DNA of 62,571 nucleotides, taken from NCBI GenBank assembly GCA_020720115.1, contig DYPD01000003.1:1-62571 (forward strand), written 5' to 3'. This document shows, piece by piece, positions 9,532 to 61,681 of this stretch. Below the pieces are notes generated by a model. It was not told where the DNA came from and searched no databases. It was given only the letters and a program-made list of their open reading frames with translations. The position numbers and the translations under genes were made by a program. How positions within the stretch are numbered: the first letter of the stretch is position 1; every line of letters starts with the position of its first letter. This DNA is from Thiomargarita sp. Its GTDB lineage: Bacteria > Pseudomonadota > Gammaproteobacteria > Beggiatoales > Beggiatoaceae.

Positions 9532-10108
9532 ATACCACGCGAACGTCGTTTGCGGCTAATGCTTGCGTACCCGCAGTGGGGTTAAGATTGAAAGCGACTG
9601 TATTGTTATCGCCGCAAACCAATTCGACTGGACGAGAAATGCCTGCATAATTATCGCTGGCAACGCGCACTTCGCGTGAGCCAGTAGGTAATTTGGTAAA
9701 TTTTACTGAACCATCTCTACTGGTCACAGCATTTTGCTCACCGATGCTCACTGCAGCATTGCTAATCAGCGTACCATCTACCGCGTTACTGACCACCACC
9801 TGCAAGTTTGCACAGTTTGCGTCAGGATTATTGGCGCTGGTAATGCCCGCAGCGTTGGGCACTAGATGCAAGGTCAGAGGATCAAAATCAAAAGGCGCAT
9901 CGTAATAAACAGTGACTATTTGTCCGCGTCCACCAAAGGGGGCGGGCACTTCAACATCTACCCGGATGTTGTTAATTTGTACTGTATCTGCATCCACAGC
10001 AAAAGCCTGTACATTACTGAAATCTATGACGGTGCCTGCTGCCATTGCCTGACTCCCCAGCAACAGACCGATGGACACAGAGGTCAGCAGAGTTTTTAGC
10101 GTTTTCAT
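9512..10108 (-). pseudogene. 5' part of split secreted protein, signal peptide
   Basis: The front part of the interrupted secreted protein (198 codons). It has a clear signal peptide, MKTLKTLLTSVSIGLLLGSQ with AMA-A cleavage, then a beta-rich region and a carboxypeptidase-regulatory-like repeat (about residues 115-165, VVVSNAVDGTLISNAAVSIG). The last five residues and the TAA stop come from the inserted element: the native frame runs to RVVL and then enters the inverted end. GGGAGA precedes the ATG at 10108. A truncated exported protein could still be made, but the C-terminal DUF2135-like domain would be missing. Intact relatives, if found, should be about 375 residues long. Confidence 0.82.
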
Positions 10109-10272
10109 TTGTCAATTCTCCCAATGCGAATAAACCACGAAGACAAGGTGTAGATTCTATTTACATAAGAAACTCACCAAATTGGGAAGAGGATAGAGCG
10201 CAAAACACTACTTATCCTTGCTTATGAAGTCTAGTTCAAAAAACCATTAAAGAAAGTGATACCAACAAAAAT

Positions 10273-55025: not shown

Positions 55026-56903
55026 ATGAGCCTCTATAGCCTTGAAAGTCTGTTTGCTGATGCGGTGTTGGATGCGCTGGATGTGCGCTTTGCGCAGTTT
55101 TTAGCCAACCTACAGCGTGCGCAAGCGCCAGACAAACCCGTAACGCCGGTGCTGTTGTTGAGCGCCGCTTTGGTGAGTTGCTGGACGCGACGCGGGCACA
55201 TTTGCCTGGATTTGGTGGCGCTGGCAGAACAGCCGTTGCCGCTGGAGATACCGCCGCAGAATGGGCGCTGTCCGGCGTTGGCAGACTGGCAAGCGGCGCT
55301 GCATGACAGCCCCTTGGTGCAGCCGCCAGGCGCTTATGCGCCGCTGATTTTGGCGGATAATCAACGTCTGTATCTGCACCGTTACTGGGCTTATGAGCAG
55401 GCGTTGAGCCAGCACATTGTGGCGCGTTTGGCGCAAGGGGTGGAAGATTTAGACGAAACTGCCTTGCAAGACAGTGTGCAACGCCTGTTTCCCGCTACCG
55501 CAACGCAACCGGATTGGCAAAAAATCGCGGTACTGATCGCCGCACAACAGAAATTTTGTGTGATTTCCGGCGGTCCGGGTACGGGCAAAACCACGACTGT
55601 GGTGAAATTGTTAGCGGTGTTGTTGGAACAAGCACCCAAGCCGCTACGCATTGCCTTGCTGGCGCCGACAGGCAAAGCCGCCATGCGCTTGCAAGAAGCG
55701 CTTACTCGGCAGAAGCAAAGCCTGCCTTGTAGTGCCGCCATCAAGCAAAGTATTCCTGAAGAAACCGCCACTATTCACCGCTTTTTGGGCTATCAGCCGA
55801 ATGCGCTGCATTTTCGTTTTAATGCCAGCAACCTAGCGCCGGTTGACTTGGTGGTGGTGGATGAGGCTTCAATGGTGGATTTGGCGCTGATGAGCAAATT
55901 GCTGCAAGCCCTGCCTGCACGCGCTCGGTTGATTTTGTTGGGTGATAAGGATCAGTTGTCTTCCGTGGAAGCGGGGGCGGTGTTGGGTGACCTGTGTGCG
56001 CACAGCGCAACGGGGGGTGACAACCGTTTTTCGCCCGCGTGTTGGCAACGCTTGGAGCGCTTGCTAGGGCAAACGCTGGGGCTGCCAGCAGGTGACGCCG
56101 CTGCACCGCCTATGCAAAACGCCGTTGTGGTGCTGCAACACAGCTACCGCTTTGGCAACGACAGCCCCATCGGGCAGTTGGCGCGGGCAATTAACGCGGG
56201 CAAGGCGGCGCACGCTTTGCGTTTGCTGCATACGCCAACGGTTGGGCAGCAGCGCATTCTGTGGTTTAATCACGCTGATCCTTATGACGCTGCCGTGATT
56301 GAACTGATCATCCAGGGCTTTACTGCTTATTTGCACGCCGCTGACGCGCAACAAGCCTTGGAACACTTTGATCAATTCCGTGTATTGTGCGCGCATCGCC
56401 AGGGTGAACTTGGCGTGGTTAAACTGAACCAATTGATTGAAAAGCTGTTAATTCATGCCGGCAAACTCCCAGCAGGCGGGCGTCGGGCGCGTTGGTATGT
56501 CGGACAACCGCTGATGATCACGCAAAATGACTATAATCTGCGTTTGTTTAACGGTGACATTGGCATTGTTTTGCCCGATCCACAGCAGTCGCAGCGTCGG
56601 CTGGCGTTTTTCCGTACCGCCGAGCAGCAGATTCGCAGCTTTTTGCCCACGCGATTGCCGCAGCACGAAACCGCTTACGCCATGACTATTCACAAAAGTC
56701 AGGGGTCAGAATTTGAGCAGGTGTTGCTGGTGTTGCCAGACAGCTTCTCGCCCGTTCTCAGCCGCGAATTGCTTTACACTGGACTCACTCGCGCCAAACA
56801 AAGCGTCGCTGTGCTGGCTGGTGCAGCCGTGCTGAGTGAGAGTATTCAACGCCGTGCTTTACGCAGTTCGGGTTTGCGTCAAAGCATTTGGCAAACACTT
56901 TGA
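55026..56903 (+). CDS. recD: Exodeoxyribonuclease V alpha subunit
   Basis: RecD is the fast 5'-3' helicase of RecBCD. The 625-aa product has the N-terminal RecB-contact region, Walker A VISGGPGTGKTTT (about residues 178-190), Walker B VVVDEASMVD (near 276) and the C-terminal helicase motif AMTIHKSQGSEFEQVLLVLP (near 555). Length matches the RecD (not RecD2) type. recB and recC are not adjacent in this window, though they commonly are. prmB follows after 19 bases. Confidence 0.94.
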   Translation: MSLYSLESLFADAVLDALDVRFAQFLANLQRAQAPDKPVTPVLLLSAALVSCWTRRGHICLDLVALAEQPLPLEIPPQNGRCPALADWQAALHDSPLVQPPGAYAPLILADNQRLYLHRYWAYEQALSQHIVARLAQGVEDLDETALQDSVQRLFPATATQPDWQKIAVLIAAQQKFCVISGGPGTGKTTTVVKLLAVLLEQAPKPLRIALLAPTGKAAMRLQEALTRQKQSLPCSAAIKQSIPEETATIHRFLGYQPNALHFRFNASNLAPVDLVVVDEASMVDLALMSKLLQALPARARLILLGDKDQLSSVEAGAVLGDLCAHSATGGDNRFSPACWQRLERLLGQTLGLPAGDAAAPPMQNAVVVLQHSYRFGNDSPIGQLARAINAGKAAHALRLLHTPTVGQQRILWFNHADPYDAAVIELIIQGFTAYLHAADAQQALEHFDQFRVLCAHRQGELGVVKLNQLIEKLLIHAGKLPAGGRRARWYVGQPLMITQNDYNLRLFNGDIGIVLPDPQQSQRRLAFFRTAEQQIRSFLPTRLPQHETAYAMTIHKSQGSEFEQVLLVLPDSFSPVLSRELLYTGLTRAKQSVAVLAGAAVLSESIQRRALRSSGLRQSIWQTL

Positions 56904-56922
56904 TTTAATTAAGGAAAAACTC

Positions 56923-57876
56923 ATGTCTCAAGATACCCTTGAGTGGGAAACCTACGCCACAGAACTCCACACCCTAAACGATTTCGTGCGTTTAGGCGCC
57001 AGTTTGTTTAATGCCAATGACTTGTATTTTGGGCATGGTACGGACAATGCGATTGATGAGGCTATGCAGTTGGTGTTGCACGCGCTGCATTTAGACCGCG
57101 AACCCCCGGAAAACTTCTGGTCAGCCCGCTTGAGCACGCCGGAAAAGCAAGCAGTTATTAAACTCTTCCGTCAACGGGTCGAGCAACGCATCCCGGCGGC
57201 TTATTTGTGTGGCGAAGCTTGGTTTGCCGGTTTGCGTTTTCGCGTCAACGAGCATGTGCTCATCCCGCGTTCACCCTTGGCGGAGTTGATCAATGCGTAT
57301 TTCCAACCTTGGGTAGAAATGGAACAAGTGGTTTCTGTGTTGGATTTATGCACAGGGTGCGGCTGCATTGCCATTGCTACTGCCTTGACTCTGCCGCATG
57401 TGTTGGTAGATGCCAGCGACATTTCGCCTTCTGCTTTGAGTGTGGCGCAGCACAATGTGGATGAGTATGAACTAGGGGACCAGGTGCGTTTGCTTCACAG
57501 CGATCTGTTTGAGAACTTACAAGGGCTGCGCTACGATTTGATTTTATGCAATCCGCCCTATGTGGATGCAGAAGAATTGGCGCAAATGCCCGCGGAATAT
57601 CATCACGAACCCGTGCTGGGTTTAGCCGCAGGCAGCGATGGTTTAACTGTGGTCAAGCGCATTTTGCGCGACGCCGCCCAGCATTTGAATCCAGAAGGGG
57701 TGCTGATTGTCGAAGTGGGCGCCAGCCAGCCGGCGCTGCAAGAAACTTATCCCAACGTGCATTTTGTTTGGTTAGATTTTGAACATGGTGGCAATGGCGT
57801 ATTCTTGATTACCGCCGAACAATTACAAGCACAGGCGGCTGAGTTTAACGCCGCCGCTGCGGATATTTTGCGTTGA
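56923..57876 (+). CDS. prmB: Ribosomal protein uL3 glutamine methyltransferase
   Basis: From the ATG at 56923 (AAGG upstream; the longer frame from 56836 overlaps recD) the product is 317 aa. It has SAM motif I VLDLCTGCGCIAIA (near residue 140) and the catalytic LILCNPPYVDAEELAQMP (NPPY near residue 209), then EPVLGLAAGSDGL. The long N-terminal region and the E-L sequence after NPPYVD match PrmB rather than PrmC. It methylates a glutamine of uL3 (L3). Confidence 0.92.
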   Translation: MSQDTLEWETYATELHTLNDFVRLGASLFNANDLYFGHGTDNAIDEAMQLVLHALHLDREPPENFWSARLSTPEKQAVIKLFRQRVEQRIPAAYLCGEAWFAGLRFRVNEHVLIPRSPLAELINAYFQPWVEMEQVVSVLDLCTGCGCIAIATALTLPHVLVDASDISPSALSVAQHNVDEYELGDQVRLLHSDLFENLQGLRYDLILCNPPYVDAEELAQMPAEYHHEPVLGLAAGSDGLTVVKRILRDAAQHLNPEGVLIVEVGASQPALQETYPNVHFVWLDFEHGGNGVFLITAEQLQAQAAEFNAAAADILR

Positions 57877-58415: not shown

Positions 58416-59441
58416 ATGTCAAAGCGCACCTTCTACAGTCTTTTCTCTTGCTTATGCGGGCTTTTAGCCTTCAGCCAAACTCTGTTGGCGGCAACGCCAG
58501 CAGAGGCTACGCAGCCTACCCAAATCATGTATCAAGCGCCCGATGCCAACGCGCCTTTGAGTCGTCGAGAAGCTGGGCTGGTAGATGATTCAGTGCTCGG
58601 CGGTGCGACTTCACGAGGCTTATCTCGCGGGCTAAGCCGAGGGCTGTCACGCGGTTTAAGTCGTGGGCTATCACGCGGCTTGTCTCGCGGTTTAAGTCGA
58701 GGGCTGTCACGCGGCTTGTCACGCGGACTCAGCCGAGGGCTGTCTCGCGGTTTAAGTCGCGGGCTCAGTCGAGGGGTTTCTCGTGGCGTCAGTCGTGGTG
58801 TTAGTCGTGGTACGCCAGGCGGTGCCGAAGAGGCACATGCACAACCCACCGAAGCACTAGAAGCCGCTGAACACAAAGCAGAAGCGCCTGCTGAAGATTT
58901 GATTGCCCTGCCCAGCGTGATAGCGCCTTTAGCCCCTTTGCACACGGGTTTAACCACGCAAGCGCAGCCCACACTGTATTTCTACATTTCCACTGATTGG
59001 CCGGAAATGCTGGAATTTACCCTCAATAAACGCCGTGCGCCCAAGCCGGAATTACATCTGGAAATGCGTCCCCCTGAAGGTGGTAAATTTGCCCAAGGTT
59101 TTCACAGCATTTCCCTTTCAGAACAGGGCGTTACTTTAGAAGCAGGGGAAACTTACGAATGGTTTGTGTTCATTACCCCAGACCCCATTGAGCGCACGGG
59201 CGATTTGTTCGCCAGTGCTACCATTCAGCGCGTCCTAGCAGATAGCCAGTTGCAAGCGGATTTGCAACGCGCCCCCGTCAACGAACAGTACAAAGTCTAT
59301 GCTACACACGGCATTTGGTACGATGCGGTAGATACCCTGCATCAAAAGACAACGGGTGCAAGCTTGCGCCGTTTGCGTGCCGAACTGTGCGAACAAGCAA
59401 AAATGCCTAAATTGGCACTCTTTGACCGTAGCCAACTCTAG
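58416..59441 (+). CDS. DUF928 protein with SRGL tetrapeptide repeats
   Basis: From the ATG at 58416 the product is 341 aa with a signal peptide (TFYSLFSCLCGLLAFSQTLLA). Residues 66-133 are seventeen tetrapeptides SRGx (thirteen SRGL, three SRGV, one SRGT). The C-terminal part (about 185-335) matches DUF928: PTLYFYISTDWPEMLEFTL, LSEQGVTLEAGETYEWFVFI, RVLADSQLQADLQ, HGIWYDAVDTLHQ. The repeat carries a strong positive charge. The next gene, a VWA-like membrane protein, starts three bases after the stop. Function unknown; exported and probably structural or interacting. Confidence 0.85.
   Translation: MSKRTFYSLFSCLCGLLAFSQTLLAATPAEATQPTQIMYQAPDANAPLSRREAGLVDDSVLGGATSRGLSRGLSRGLSRGLSRGLSRGLSRGLSRGLSRGLSRGLSRGLSRGLSRGLSRGVSRGVSRGVSRGTPGGAEEAHAQPTEALEAAEHKAEAPAEDLIALPSVIAPLAPLHTGLTTQAQPTLYFYISTDWPEMLEFTLNKRRAPKPELHLEMRPPEGGKFAQGFHSISLSEQGVTLEAGETYEWFVFITPDPIERTGDLFASATIQRVLADSQLQADLQRAPVNEQYKVYATHGIWYDAVDTLHQKTTGASLRRLRAELCEQAKMPKLALFDRSQL
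58611..58814 (+). repeat. 17 tandem 12-bp units encoding SRGx
   Basis: Seventeen 12-base units, each SRG plus L, V or T, with no spacers. Codons vary between units (TCA/TCT/AGC/AGT for Ser), and larger blocks recur every 48 bases or so, so the array grew by duplicating sets of units. Confidence 0.93.
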
Positions 59442-59443
59442 CC

Positions 59444-61681
59444 ATGGCGCATTTCGCTACGCCTCCTGCCAAACGCCGCCGCTGGTGGCGTTTGGCAGCG
59501 TTTTTAGTATTGGTCGTGCTGGCATTGCTGTGGGGGTTGACAATGCTAGGACCGCGTTTTCTCATGTCCAACAAAACATTTGCCCCACCGCTCTCGTCAG
59601 CGGACTTAAGTACATCCACCGCACTGCCTGCTAAAGCCTATCCACAGACAGACGGCGATAGGTTCCAGCAAGAACGTCGGGAAAAAGATCAAGAAATGCT
59701 GGTAGATGCGCCCATCGCCAGTAAAACTGAAACAGCCGCCAAACCCGCCGCGCCGCCACCGCCACCCCCTGGCACACACCAGCGCCAAGTCGGCGCAGGA
59801 CTTGCCACCACGCCGCCGCTTAACCAAGAAGCGGCTGAAGAACAAGTACAAGAACAGGTGCAGGTCAATCGCCTGCAAGCCTTATCGCAAATCGCCAATT
59901 TACCCACGCCAGCGTCGCTGACGCAAATGACGCAGACCACCGAAGGCGTTGGCAAAGCAAAGAAAGCCGATCTAGCGCTAACCAGCAACGCGCCTGAGCG
60001 GGCGCTGAGTGGACGGCACTTGTCGCCCGAACAGCCTTTAGGTGGAACAGTTCCGCTCGTTCCAGCAAATAACGTTGAACGCGACACACTCGAAACGATG
60101 CAAGACGCGCTGGTTGCCGACGATAAATCCCGCTGGTCGCTGTCTGAAAATTTTCTGCATACCCGTTACGACACGCAAAATCTGCATTTCCAAGCCGCCG
60201 AAGGTTACTGGGCAAACACCTATGTACCTGGCGATCCGCTGCTGCGCCGCCTGCAAGTGCGCTTAAAACGCCAACACCCCAGCTTGCCAGATCGCAACGT
60301 ACAAAGCATTTGGCAGCCCTTTGATGCGCCGCAACAAGCAGCCTTGGCGCTCTATGTTCAGGCAGACAAACGCACCGTGCAAGGCAGCACACGCCTATTG
60401 CTACAAGTCGGCTTAAAAGGCACAGCGCGACACAGCGGGCGGCGTCCCGCCATGCGCGTCGGCATCGTGCTGGATTTGCGTGGAACACTCAGCAGCGAAC
60501 AGGGCACACTCATGCGGGCTTTGCTACAAGCCTTATTGCAAGCACGGCAAAGCGACGATCAATTCCTACTGGCAGTAGCGGGTCGTCCTGGTGGATTGCT
60601 GTTACCGCCAGAGCAATTTCGCCAAGGCCCCTTAAGTTTGGCGCTACCCCATCTATTCGGTGATGCACCCGCGCCTTCAGCCGAACAGCTAGAGCTGCCA
60701 CAGGCTATCGAAGCCGCAGCAGAGCACCTAAAACGCAACGACAGCCCCGACTCCCCATTAGGCACCAGCCTACTGCTACTCGTCACCGCCCAAAGTCTAG
60801 GCACAGCGGCTGAAACCCTCAACGAACAGGCACACCAATACGCCACCGCCGGCATCCCGCTCAGTGTAGTAGGCATAGGCAACCAACTCGCAGCCGCCGA
60901 ATTAGAAGAACTCACAGTGCTAGGACAAGGGCATTTACGCCTGTTAGAGCGCAATGACGCCGCCGCCGCTCTCATAGACCGTGAACTCCATGCCGTCAGC
61001 CGCGTCGTAGCACGCGCTTTACGCCTGAATATTCGCCTCAGCCCCAGCGTCAAACTGATAGACATCCCTGGCTCACACCGCTTAGACACCCATCGCAGCA
61101 CCCAAATGCGCCAAGCAGAACGCAGCATAGACCAACGTCTAGCGCGTAGCCTTGGCATCGAACGCGACCGAGGCACAGACGAAGCCGGCATTCAAATCCT
61201 ACTACCCGCCTTTTACGCCAACGACAGCCACGTCATCTTATTAGATTTAGTCGCCGAAAAGCCCGGACAACTGGCAGAAATAAGCCTACGTTACAAAGAC
61301 CTTGTCTATTCACGCAACGGCATCGCCCGCGCCTCACTCAATCTCGGCAACGAAGCCACAACCCCCGGACCACTCGAATTAAATGTGTGGAAAAACTTAC
61401 TCGCACTCCAACTCGCACAAGGCTTCAAACAAGCCGGAGAACAACTGGCAGCCGCCCAAGTACAACACGCAGTAGAATCCTTACAAAACTATTTGCAAGT
61501 ATTAGAAGAAATGCAAACCCAAGTCACACAATGGCGGCAAGACCAAGAATTGCAGCAAGATCAACAACTGGTGCAACATTACATTCAACTTCTAGCACAC
61601 CCAGAAACCATTTCTTTAACGCATTTAGCAGATTCTTTACAGTACGCAGCTTTTATCAAAACTCTGCAACCTCCTGATTAA
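59444..61681 (+). CDS. Membrane protein with degenerate VWA domain
   Basis: A 745-aa protein with one N-terminal membrane segment (about residues 12-34), a Pro-rich stretch (PAAPPPPPPGTHQ), a disordered linker and then a VWA-like Rossmann domain at about 338-520 (RVGIVLDLRGTLSSEQGTLM, TSLLLLVTAQSLG, IPLSVVGIGNQLAAAELEELT). The metal site DxSxS is changed to D-L-R-G-T, so binding is doubtful. A C-terminal beta region and a Gln-rich coiled coil follow. The gene starts three bases after the DUF928 gene stop, so the pair is likely one transcript and one complex. Confidence 0.8.
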   Translation: MAHFATPPAKRRRWWRLAAFLVLVVLALLWGLTMLGPRFLMSNKTFAPPLSSADLSTSTALPAKAYPQTDGDRFQQERREKDQEMLVDAPIASKTETAAKPAAPPPPPPGTHQRQVGAGLATTPPLNQEAAEEQVQEQVQVNRLQALSQIANLPTPASLTQMTQTTEGVGKAKKADLALTSNAPERALSGRHLSPEQPLGGTVPLVPANNVERDTLETMQDALVADDKSRWSLSENFLHTRYDTQNLHFQAAEGYWANTYVPGDPLLRRLQVRLKRQHPSLPDRNVQSIWQPFDAPQQAALALYVQADKRTVQGSTRLLLQVGLKGTARHSGRRPAMRVGIVLDLRGTLSSEQGTLMRALLQALLQARQSDDQFLLAVAGRPGGLLLPPEQFRQGPLSLALPHLFGDAPAPSAEQLELPQAIEAAAEHLKRNDSPDSPLGTSLLLLVTAQSLGTAAETLNEQAHQYATAGIPLSVVGIGNQLAAAELEELTVLGQGHLRLLERNDAAAALIDRELHAVSRVVARALRLNIRLSPSVKLIDIPGSHRLDTHRSTQMRQAERSIDQRLARSLGIERDRGTDEAGIQILLPAFYANDSHVILLDLVAEKPGQLAEISLRYKDLVYSRNGIARASLNLGNEATTPGPLELNVWKNLLALQLAQGFKQAGEQLAAAQVQHAVESLQNYLQVLEEMQTQVTQWRQDQELQQDQQLVQHYIQLLAHPETISLTHLADSLQYAAFIKTLQPPD

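Follow-up and report, generated by a model that had tools for sequence, protein, structure and literature searches.

The protein considered here has its closest described counterparts in two groups, namely the low-complexity tandem-repeat surface proteins and the DUF928 proteins (PF06051) encoded near genes for CHASE2, CHAT and two-partner secretion (TPS) proteins. In one cyanobacterium a DUF928 gene is clustered with CHASE2, and sll1891 is reported to be acid-stress responsive, according to PMC5587647. The gene under study lies in a 62,571-nucleotide stretch of DNA from Thiomargarita sp. (contig DYPD01000003.1, our C118), hereafter the window, which is an entire contig of a 3.86 Mb genome with 99.49% completeness and 4.36% contamination. 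It encodes a DUF928 protein with a tandem array of SRGx tetrapeptides, and it is followed by a gene for a membrane protein resembling the von Willebrand factor type A (VWA) proteins. In-frame arrays whose unit number varies among relatives are shared with the tandem-repeat surface proteins, but the DUF928 repeat seems to have arisen from a motif conserved in its family, probably more than once, and is held at the protein level. With the DUF928 proteins near CHASE2, CHAT and TPS genes the window protein shares a domain above the cut-off, a signal-like N-terminus and an Arg-Gly (RG) motif between the two; it differs from them in having this motif 17 times instead of once, no Cys between the copies and the domain, and no such module genes within 6 kb.

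Of 42 genomes of the window's family, 29 carry PF06051; across the class it was found in 13 of 369 sampled genomes, scoring above the cut-off in 12, and three of these 12 belong to the same family. Among 84 places inspected in the family, 81 were readable after dropping L079 and L172, which are without the N-terminus, and L078, which nearly duplicates another copy in G035. Genes were labelled by hand from the sequences together with a period finder, an array being defined as at least three tandem units, and on this basis 44 of the 81 readable genes carry an array and 37 do not. Mapped to genomes, the 44 are spread over 22 of the 29 DUF928-carrying family genomes, with 3 to 33 units in the region separating signal peptide and domain. 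What the sequence-only reading of the window overlooked is that the array looks like a family motif in multiplied form. In ordinary DUF928 proteins a G-(S/T)-R-G-like motif occurs once in this region, often with a Cys after it, typical examples being GGGTRG, GGGSRG and GAGTRGDC. No array is present in any of 10 genes sampled in nine genomes from other gammaproteobacterial families, which have 0-1 R-G before the domain, nor in the eight cyanobacterial plasmid genes read out of 11 hits, seven of which have R-G ahead of the domain (twice in one) and the remaining one R-S. In the alignment the array occupies the position of the motif in single-copy members, a placement that an aligner can favour. 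There are furthermore intermediates: SRGSRGSRG in L091, L151, L154 and L159, four to six RGV or SRGV units followed by A-C in L153, L160, L165 and L166, and six to ten RGM-type units in L176, L181 and L186. Unit types include VRG, RGM, SRGL, SRGV, SRGI, VARG, TRGGFD, NRGRFAFKA and units of 12 and 19 residues, and RG is retained in nearly all units despite this range of lengths from 3 to 19. Unit numbers differ between close relatives, being 5 and 6 at 90% domain identity (L153, L160), 5 and 4 at 92% (L165, L166) and 21 and 32 at 81% (L073, L075). From these comparisons the array looks like multiplied copies of the conserved DUF928-family motif.

The units of the window, 13 SRGL, three SRGV and one SRGT contributing 17 Arg, agree in number and place with the seventeen tetrapeptides ahead of a DUF928 domain that had been claimed at the outset, the domain itself matching PF06051 with E 4.6e-27 and 95.4 bits against a gathering cut-off of 26. 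At the DNA level these 17 units comprise 14 different 12-mers, with an all-pairs nucleotide identity of 0.614 as compared to 0.625 (standard deviation (sd) 0.021) for random codon choice, and at the protein level their residue identity is 0.90. When a uniform starting array was mutated neutrally to the same nucleotide divergence, in 100 runs per array, the runs for the window gave a mean residue identity of 0.38 and a maximum of 0.50. All 17 tetrapeptide arrays tested exceed all of their 100 neutral runs, and although finding units by the motif itself biases the ends of a run towards constancy, such a bias hardly extends over 9-33 unbroken units. Nucleotide identity over all pairs is only 0.61-0.75 in 14 of the 17 arrays. 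Six arrays are within 2 sd of random codon choice (the window, L061, L067, L068, L074 and L080), eight lie somewhat above it (z 2.2 to 5.0), and three have nearly uniform, recent-looking DNA (L072, L076 and L077). A 36-base higher-order repeat with a lag-3 identity of 0.75-0.96 is found in the window, L062, L063, L064, L066, L068-L071 and L074, and one of 24 or 48 bases in L065, L067 and L080. Adjacent units can be less alike than random codon choice, as in L065 (z -5.3) and L067 (z -5.9), but we claim no selection for codon diversity, since units inside higher-order repeats are not independent. That the motif was amplified and that its copies are under selection we consider very probable from these sequence comparisons, and as selection holds the units alike, they therefore probably have a job.

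The arrays are likely, if not proven, to be of more than one origin. In a quick IQ-TREE tree of 88 DUF928 domains, from which six of 94 rows were omitted (L078, L079 and L172, and the single-copy rows L178, L179 and L189, which were odd or weak), the window falls within a 28-row clade made only of array bearers with 100 support in the Shimodaira-Hasegawa-like approximate likelihood ratio test (SH-aLRT). The array or single-copy state requires four changes on this tree, which has long branches; such counts cannot separate gain from loss. A tree uniting the array bearers in one clade was rejected by the approximately unbiased (AU) test with p 0.0018. Short-array rows retained part of their arrays in the aligned columns of this first tree, and when it was rebuilt from a column inside the domain, five changes were required, the one-clade tree was rejected more weakly (AU p 0.0315) and the 28-row clade persisted with support 99.

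Other repeats were met with as well. Repeat-only matches at the four loci inspected (L024, L027, L029 and L030) were to unrelated proteins or reading frames, and no relatives were found on viral contigs. L086, a locus in another genome of the family, has more open reading frames (ORFs) built of tandem repeats in the same neighbourhood, at 2286-2654 and 9915-10232, and TAACTGA repeats at 2958-2978, the latter in one of 201 loci. Intergenic TAACTGA repeats have been described in marine Beggiatoaceae in PMC4679880, where 'SRG' does not occur, and those of L086 are a weak hint that the family is Beggiatoaceae-like. Within the open-access searches made we found no report of the present arrays: none of the matches listed for SRGV, SRGL and longer repeat strings was about them, the longer strings did not occur there, and nothing was found on such repeats and codons.

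The neighbourhood of DUF928 genes was analysed by running over the loci a set of models made from family members that match CHASE2, TPR-CHAT and TPS in Pfam. Among family genes, 17 of the 44 with an array and 18 of the 37 without one have a CHASE2, CHAT or TPS gene within 6 kb, as do 9 of the 10 from other gammaproteobacterial families. Four genomes contain 104 module matches in about 17.8 Mb (54 CHAT, 20 CHASE2 and 30 TPS), from which roughly 8% of positions are estimated to lie within 6 kb of a match, compared with 11 of the 22 DUF928 genes in these genomes. CHASE2, CHAT or filamentous-hemagglutinin genes are likewise found near DUF928 in five of eight cyanobacterial plasmid regions and are not annotated in the other three. 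Judged by gene neighbourhood, then, the DUF928 family is linked to an envelope-type gene set, and no open-access publication was found that joins CHASE2 with the CHAT domain and hemagglutinin, or with filamentous hemagglutinin and cyanobacteria. As a separate observation, three genomes encode a protein of about 930-990 residues with N-terminal tandem repeats of its own between array-type DUF928 and TPS-domain genes (L064 8760-11741, L074 5186-7975 and L077 5239-8151), and the one scanned, from L064, had no Pfam match.

With a probability of roughly 0.4 we propose that the window protein is an envelope adaptor carrying a multivalent RG array under selection. The RG motif would act as a short element that binds some partner in the envelope, such as an exoprotein exported by two-partner secretion, a CHAT protein or a polymer of the surface, the copy number of the array would set valency and reach, and the DUF928 domain would grip the other side of what would be a multivalent periplasmic or surface adaptor. 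At the level of the genus, the DUF928 copy beside the VWA-like gene may have been recruited to the membrane-anchored VWA-like protein. A wider version, in which the motif serves the little-studied CHASE2/CHAT/TPS envelope module as a short signal for binding or processing and was turned independently several times into an array of adjustable valency in one family, is more doubtful. Several observations weigh against the adaptor proposal. The well-supported branches of both trees alone force only two changes, possibly one gain and one loss. The module genes are absent from the window locus, where the contig ends about 0.9 kb past the VWA-like gene, and 27 of the 44 array genes are without one within 6 kb, partly because contigs end. 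In the repeat units of L090 and L019, R-G is replaced by G-R-A. The AlphaFold2 model of the DUF928 protein (two sequences) reached a predicted local distance difference test (pLDDT) score of only 39, and searching the PDB sequences with a profile of 30 DUF928 rows brought up no solved relative, all matches being weak (best E 0.013) and within the repeat region. For the DUF928 family the motif provides a testable element, which occurs once in cyanobacterial and gammaproteobacterial members and which one lineage has multiplied under selection, and the natural arrays of 3 to 33 units amount to a ready dose series for motif binding or cleavage.

The array could instead be a charged flexible stalk, a spacer sticking to anionic envelope polymers such as lipopolysaccharide or exopolysaccharide with no sequence-specific partner. 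SRGx and VRG arrays do have one Arg per three to four residues, the array of the window is followed by an acidic linker, and array lengths vary among close relatives, but near-identical units would be needless in a mere spacer, and TRGGFD arrays, which keep R-G at a net charge of zero, speak against charge being the sole conserved property; we find this explanation somewhat unlikely. A little less likely still is that R-G is a cleavage site of exported caspase-like CHAT proteins, which are sometimes encoded nearby, the arrays being multi-site or decoy substrates. Some clan-CD proteases prefer Arg, and the 23 CHAT ORFs within 6 kb of DUF928 mostly keep H-x3-H-[GA] (20 of them), an LSACxT-like motif (20) or both (18), and have a strongly hydrophobic N-terminal stretch in 18 cases. 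CHAT domains furthermore resemble separases, according to PMC10028731. However, a CHAT gene lies within 6 kb of only 10 of the 44 arrays, and L090, which lies 10 bp from a CHAT gene, has units without R-G, the LSACxT-like motif not being found in that ORF. That the arrays are functionless products of neutral DNA slippage is highly improbable, since even if the three nearly uniform arrays and the 24-48-base higher-order repeats of many others are what slippage would leave behind, residues stay constant in the 14 arrays of low nucleotide identity and all 17 surpass neutral expectation.

A further explanation, a general two-part surface complex of DUF928 and VWA-like proteins, goes back to the sequence-only reading, which had inferred a surface or envelope complex from the tight spacing of the two genes. 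The spacing is real, the ATG at 59444 following the DUF928 stop after two bases (59442-59443), and the two genes are probably expressed from one mRNA. Each of the two proteins begins with a hydrophobic stretch resembling a signal peptide or anchor, and the same pair recurs as genes 5 and 6 of L061 in the sister genome G001, which together with the window genome makes up the sampling of the genus. There it is likewise two bases apart and has the same MAHFA start, the paired proteins being 71% and 58% identical between the two genomes, and the genes upstream differ, a globin gene in the window and a small opposite-strand gene in L061. The generality of the complex did not hold up, since the remaining 79 of the 81 readable family DUF928 genes have no VWA-like neighbour, and VWA-like homologs elsewhere adjoin a different protein, which makes such a complex distinctly improbable. 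G016, G040 and L060 have the VWA-like protein without a DUF928 neighbour, and the contig of L059 starts inside the VWA-like gene with the upstream side unseen. In G016, G040 and the named metagenome-assembled genome contigs L059 and L060 the VWA-like protein adjoins a protein of about 1050 residues, which is present in all four genomes with the VWA-like protein, on a separate contig in G000 and G001. Because this protein, and not DUF928, is its companion elsewhere, the VWA-like protein seems to predate its association with DUF928, which in the genomes sampled is genus-level. An extracytoplasmic function (ECF) sigma factor gene is also found beside the VWA-like gene in L060 and L082 (G040); in these two the VWA-like protein is extended at its N-terminus, possibly by an anti-sigma region. 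The protein of about 1050 residues, without a Pfam match for the one copy scanned (L060), is encoded at L081 10931-14110, L082 247-3321, L060 9758-13048, L059 2049-5081, L104 5189-8455 and L105 5196-8321.

Coordinates of the features of the DUF928 and VWA-like genes in the window
Feature	Position	Strand	Basis
DUF928 gene, 341 aa, exported	58416..59441	+	ORF, ATG 58416 to stop 59441; PF06051
Signal-peptide-like N-terminus, residues 1-25	58416..58490	+	Kyte-Doolittle mean 2.13 over 12 residues; hydrophobicity only
RREAGLV motif, residues 50-56, N-terminal of array	58563..58583	+	alignment of 30 rows
17 SRGx units, residues 66-133	58611..58814	+	unit count from ATG 58416
Acidic linker, residues 134-165	58815..58910	+	read from translation
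DUF928 domain, residues 168-328	58917..59399	+	PF06051
VWA-like membrane protein gene, 745 aa	59444..61681	+	ORF, weak profile match, model, fold search
N-terminal membrane helix, residues 11-35	59474..59548	+	helix in model; hydrophobicity 3.32
VWA fold, residues 336-522	60449..61009	+	fold search with AlphaFold2 model
C-terminal Gln-rich helices, residues 643-741	61370..61666	+	model pLDDT 69-86 from about residue 651
15-pair hairpin and T-rich tail within first codons of VWA-like gene, terminator- or attenuator-like	59466..59498	+	fold z -3.5

In the RREAGLV motif G54 is invariant and R50 almost so. NCBIfam matches to FliH (best E 9.4e-8) were rejected, being far below the cut-offs and most likely repeat-driven, and the PADLOC models gave one weak match (E 0.0012), within the repeat, to a type I specificity subunit. 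RNA structure in part of the array (58600-58740) was unsupported, with a folding z of -0.85.

The membrane-anchored VWA-like protein with a Gln-rich coil proposed from the sequence is largely upheld by the model, which has the C-terminal Gln-rich helices and in which the VWA fold matches 4jdu with Z 16.2 (root-mean-square deviation 3.0, 152 aligned residues) at a mean model pLDDT of 51.8; in the VWA part pLDDT is mostly 57-81, with a low stretch at about 381-410. The profile evidence is weak, VWA_3 matching with E 6.5e-4 and 20.2 bits below its cut-off of 27, the sister-genome protein is likewise under the Pfam cut-off, and a PDB profile search for the family gave no match at E up to 0.1. A VWA fold and a membrane anchor are shared with BatA-BatB-like and YfbK-like proteins, fold likeness to BatB (3ibs) being Z 15.1, but the window protein lacks a Pfam match above the cut-off and has DLRGT (residues 344-348) in place of the DxSxS of the metal ion-dependent adhesion site (MIDAS), as compared by eye with a YfbK-like protein having DVSGS. 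Canonical metal binding seems unlikely, because in all six aligned homologs only the Asp of DxSxS is kept, both Ser positions being unconserved. VWA-like matches occur in 26 of 57 genomes searched and are strong and long in only four (G000, G001, G016 and G040); in the other 22 they mainly cover residues 313-536, the single such partial match inspected being a YfbK-like protein.

The hairpin at the start of the VWA-like gene could lower VWA expression relative to DUF928; the sister genome has none there (z -0.34), and terminator-like sites in the region are not above chance, with six found and 6.5 expected. A PrmB-like ribosomal protein L3 methyltransferase gene is found near a DUF928 gene in the window (56836-57876) and in L098 (5026-5964), adjoining different DUF928 paralogs in the two genus genomes.

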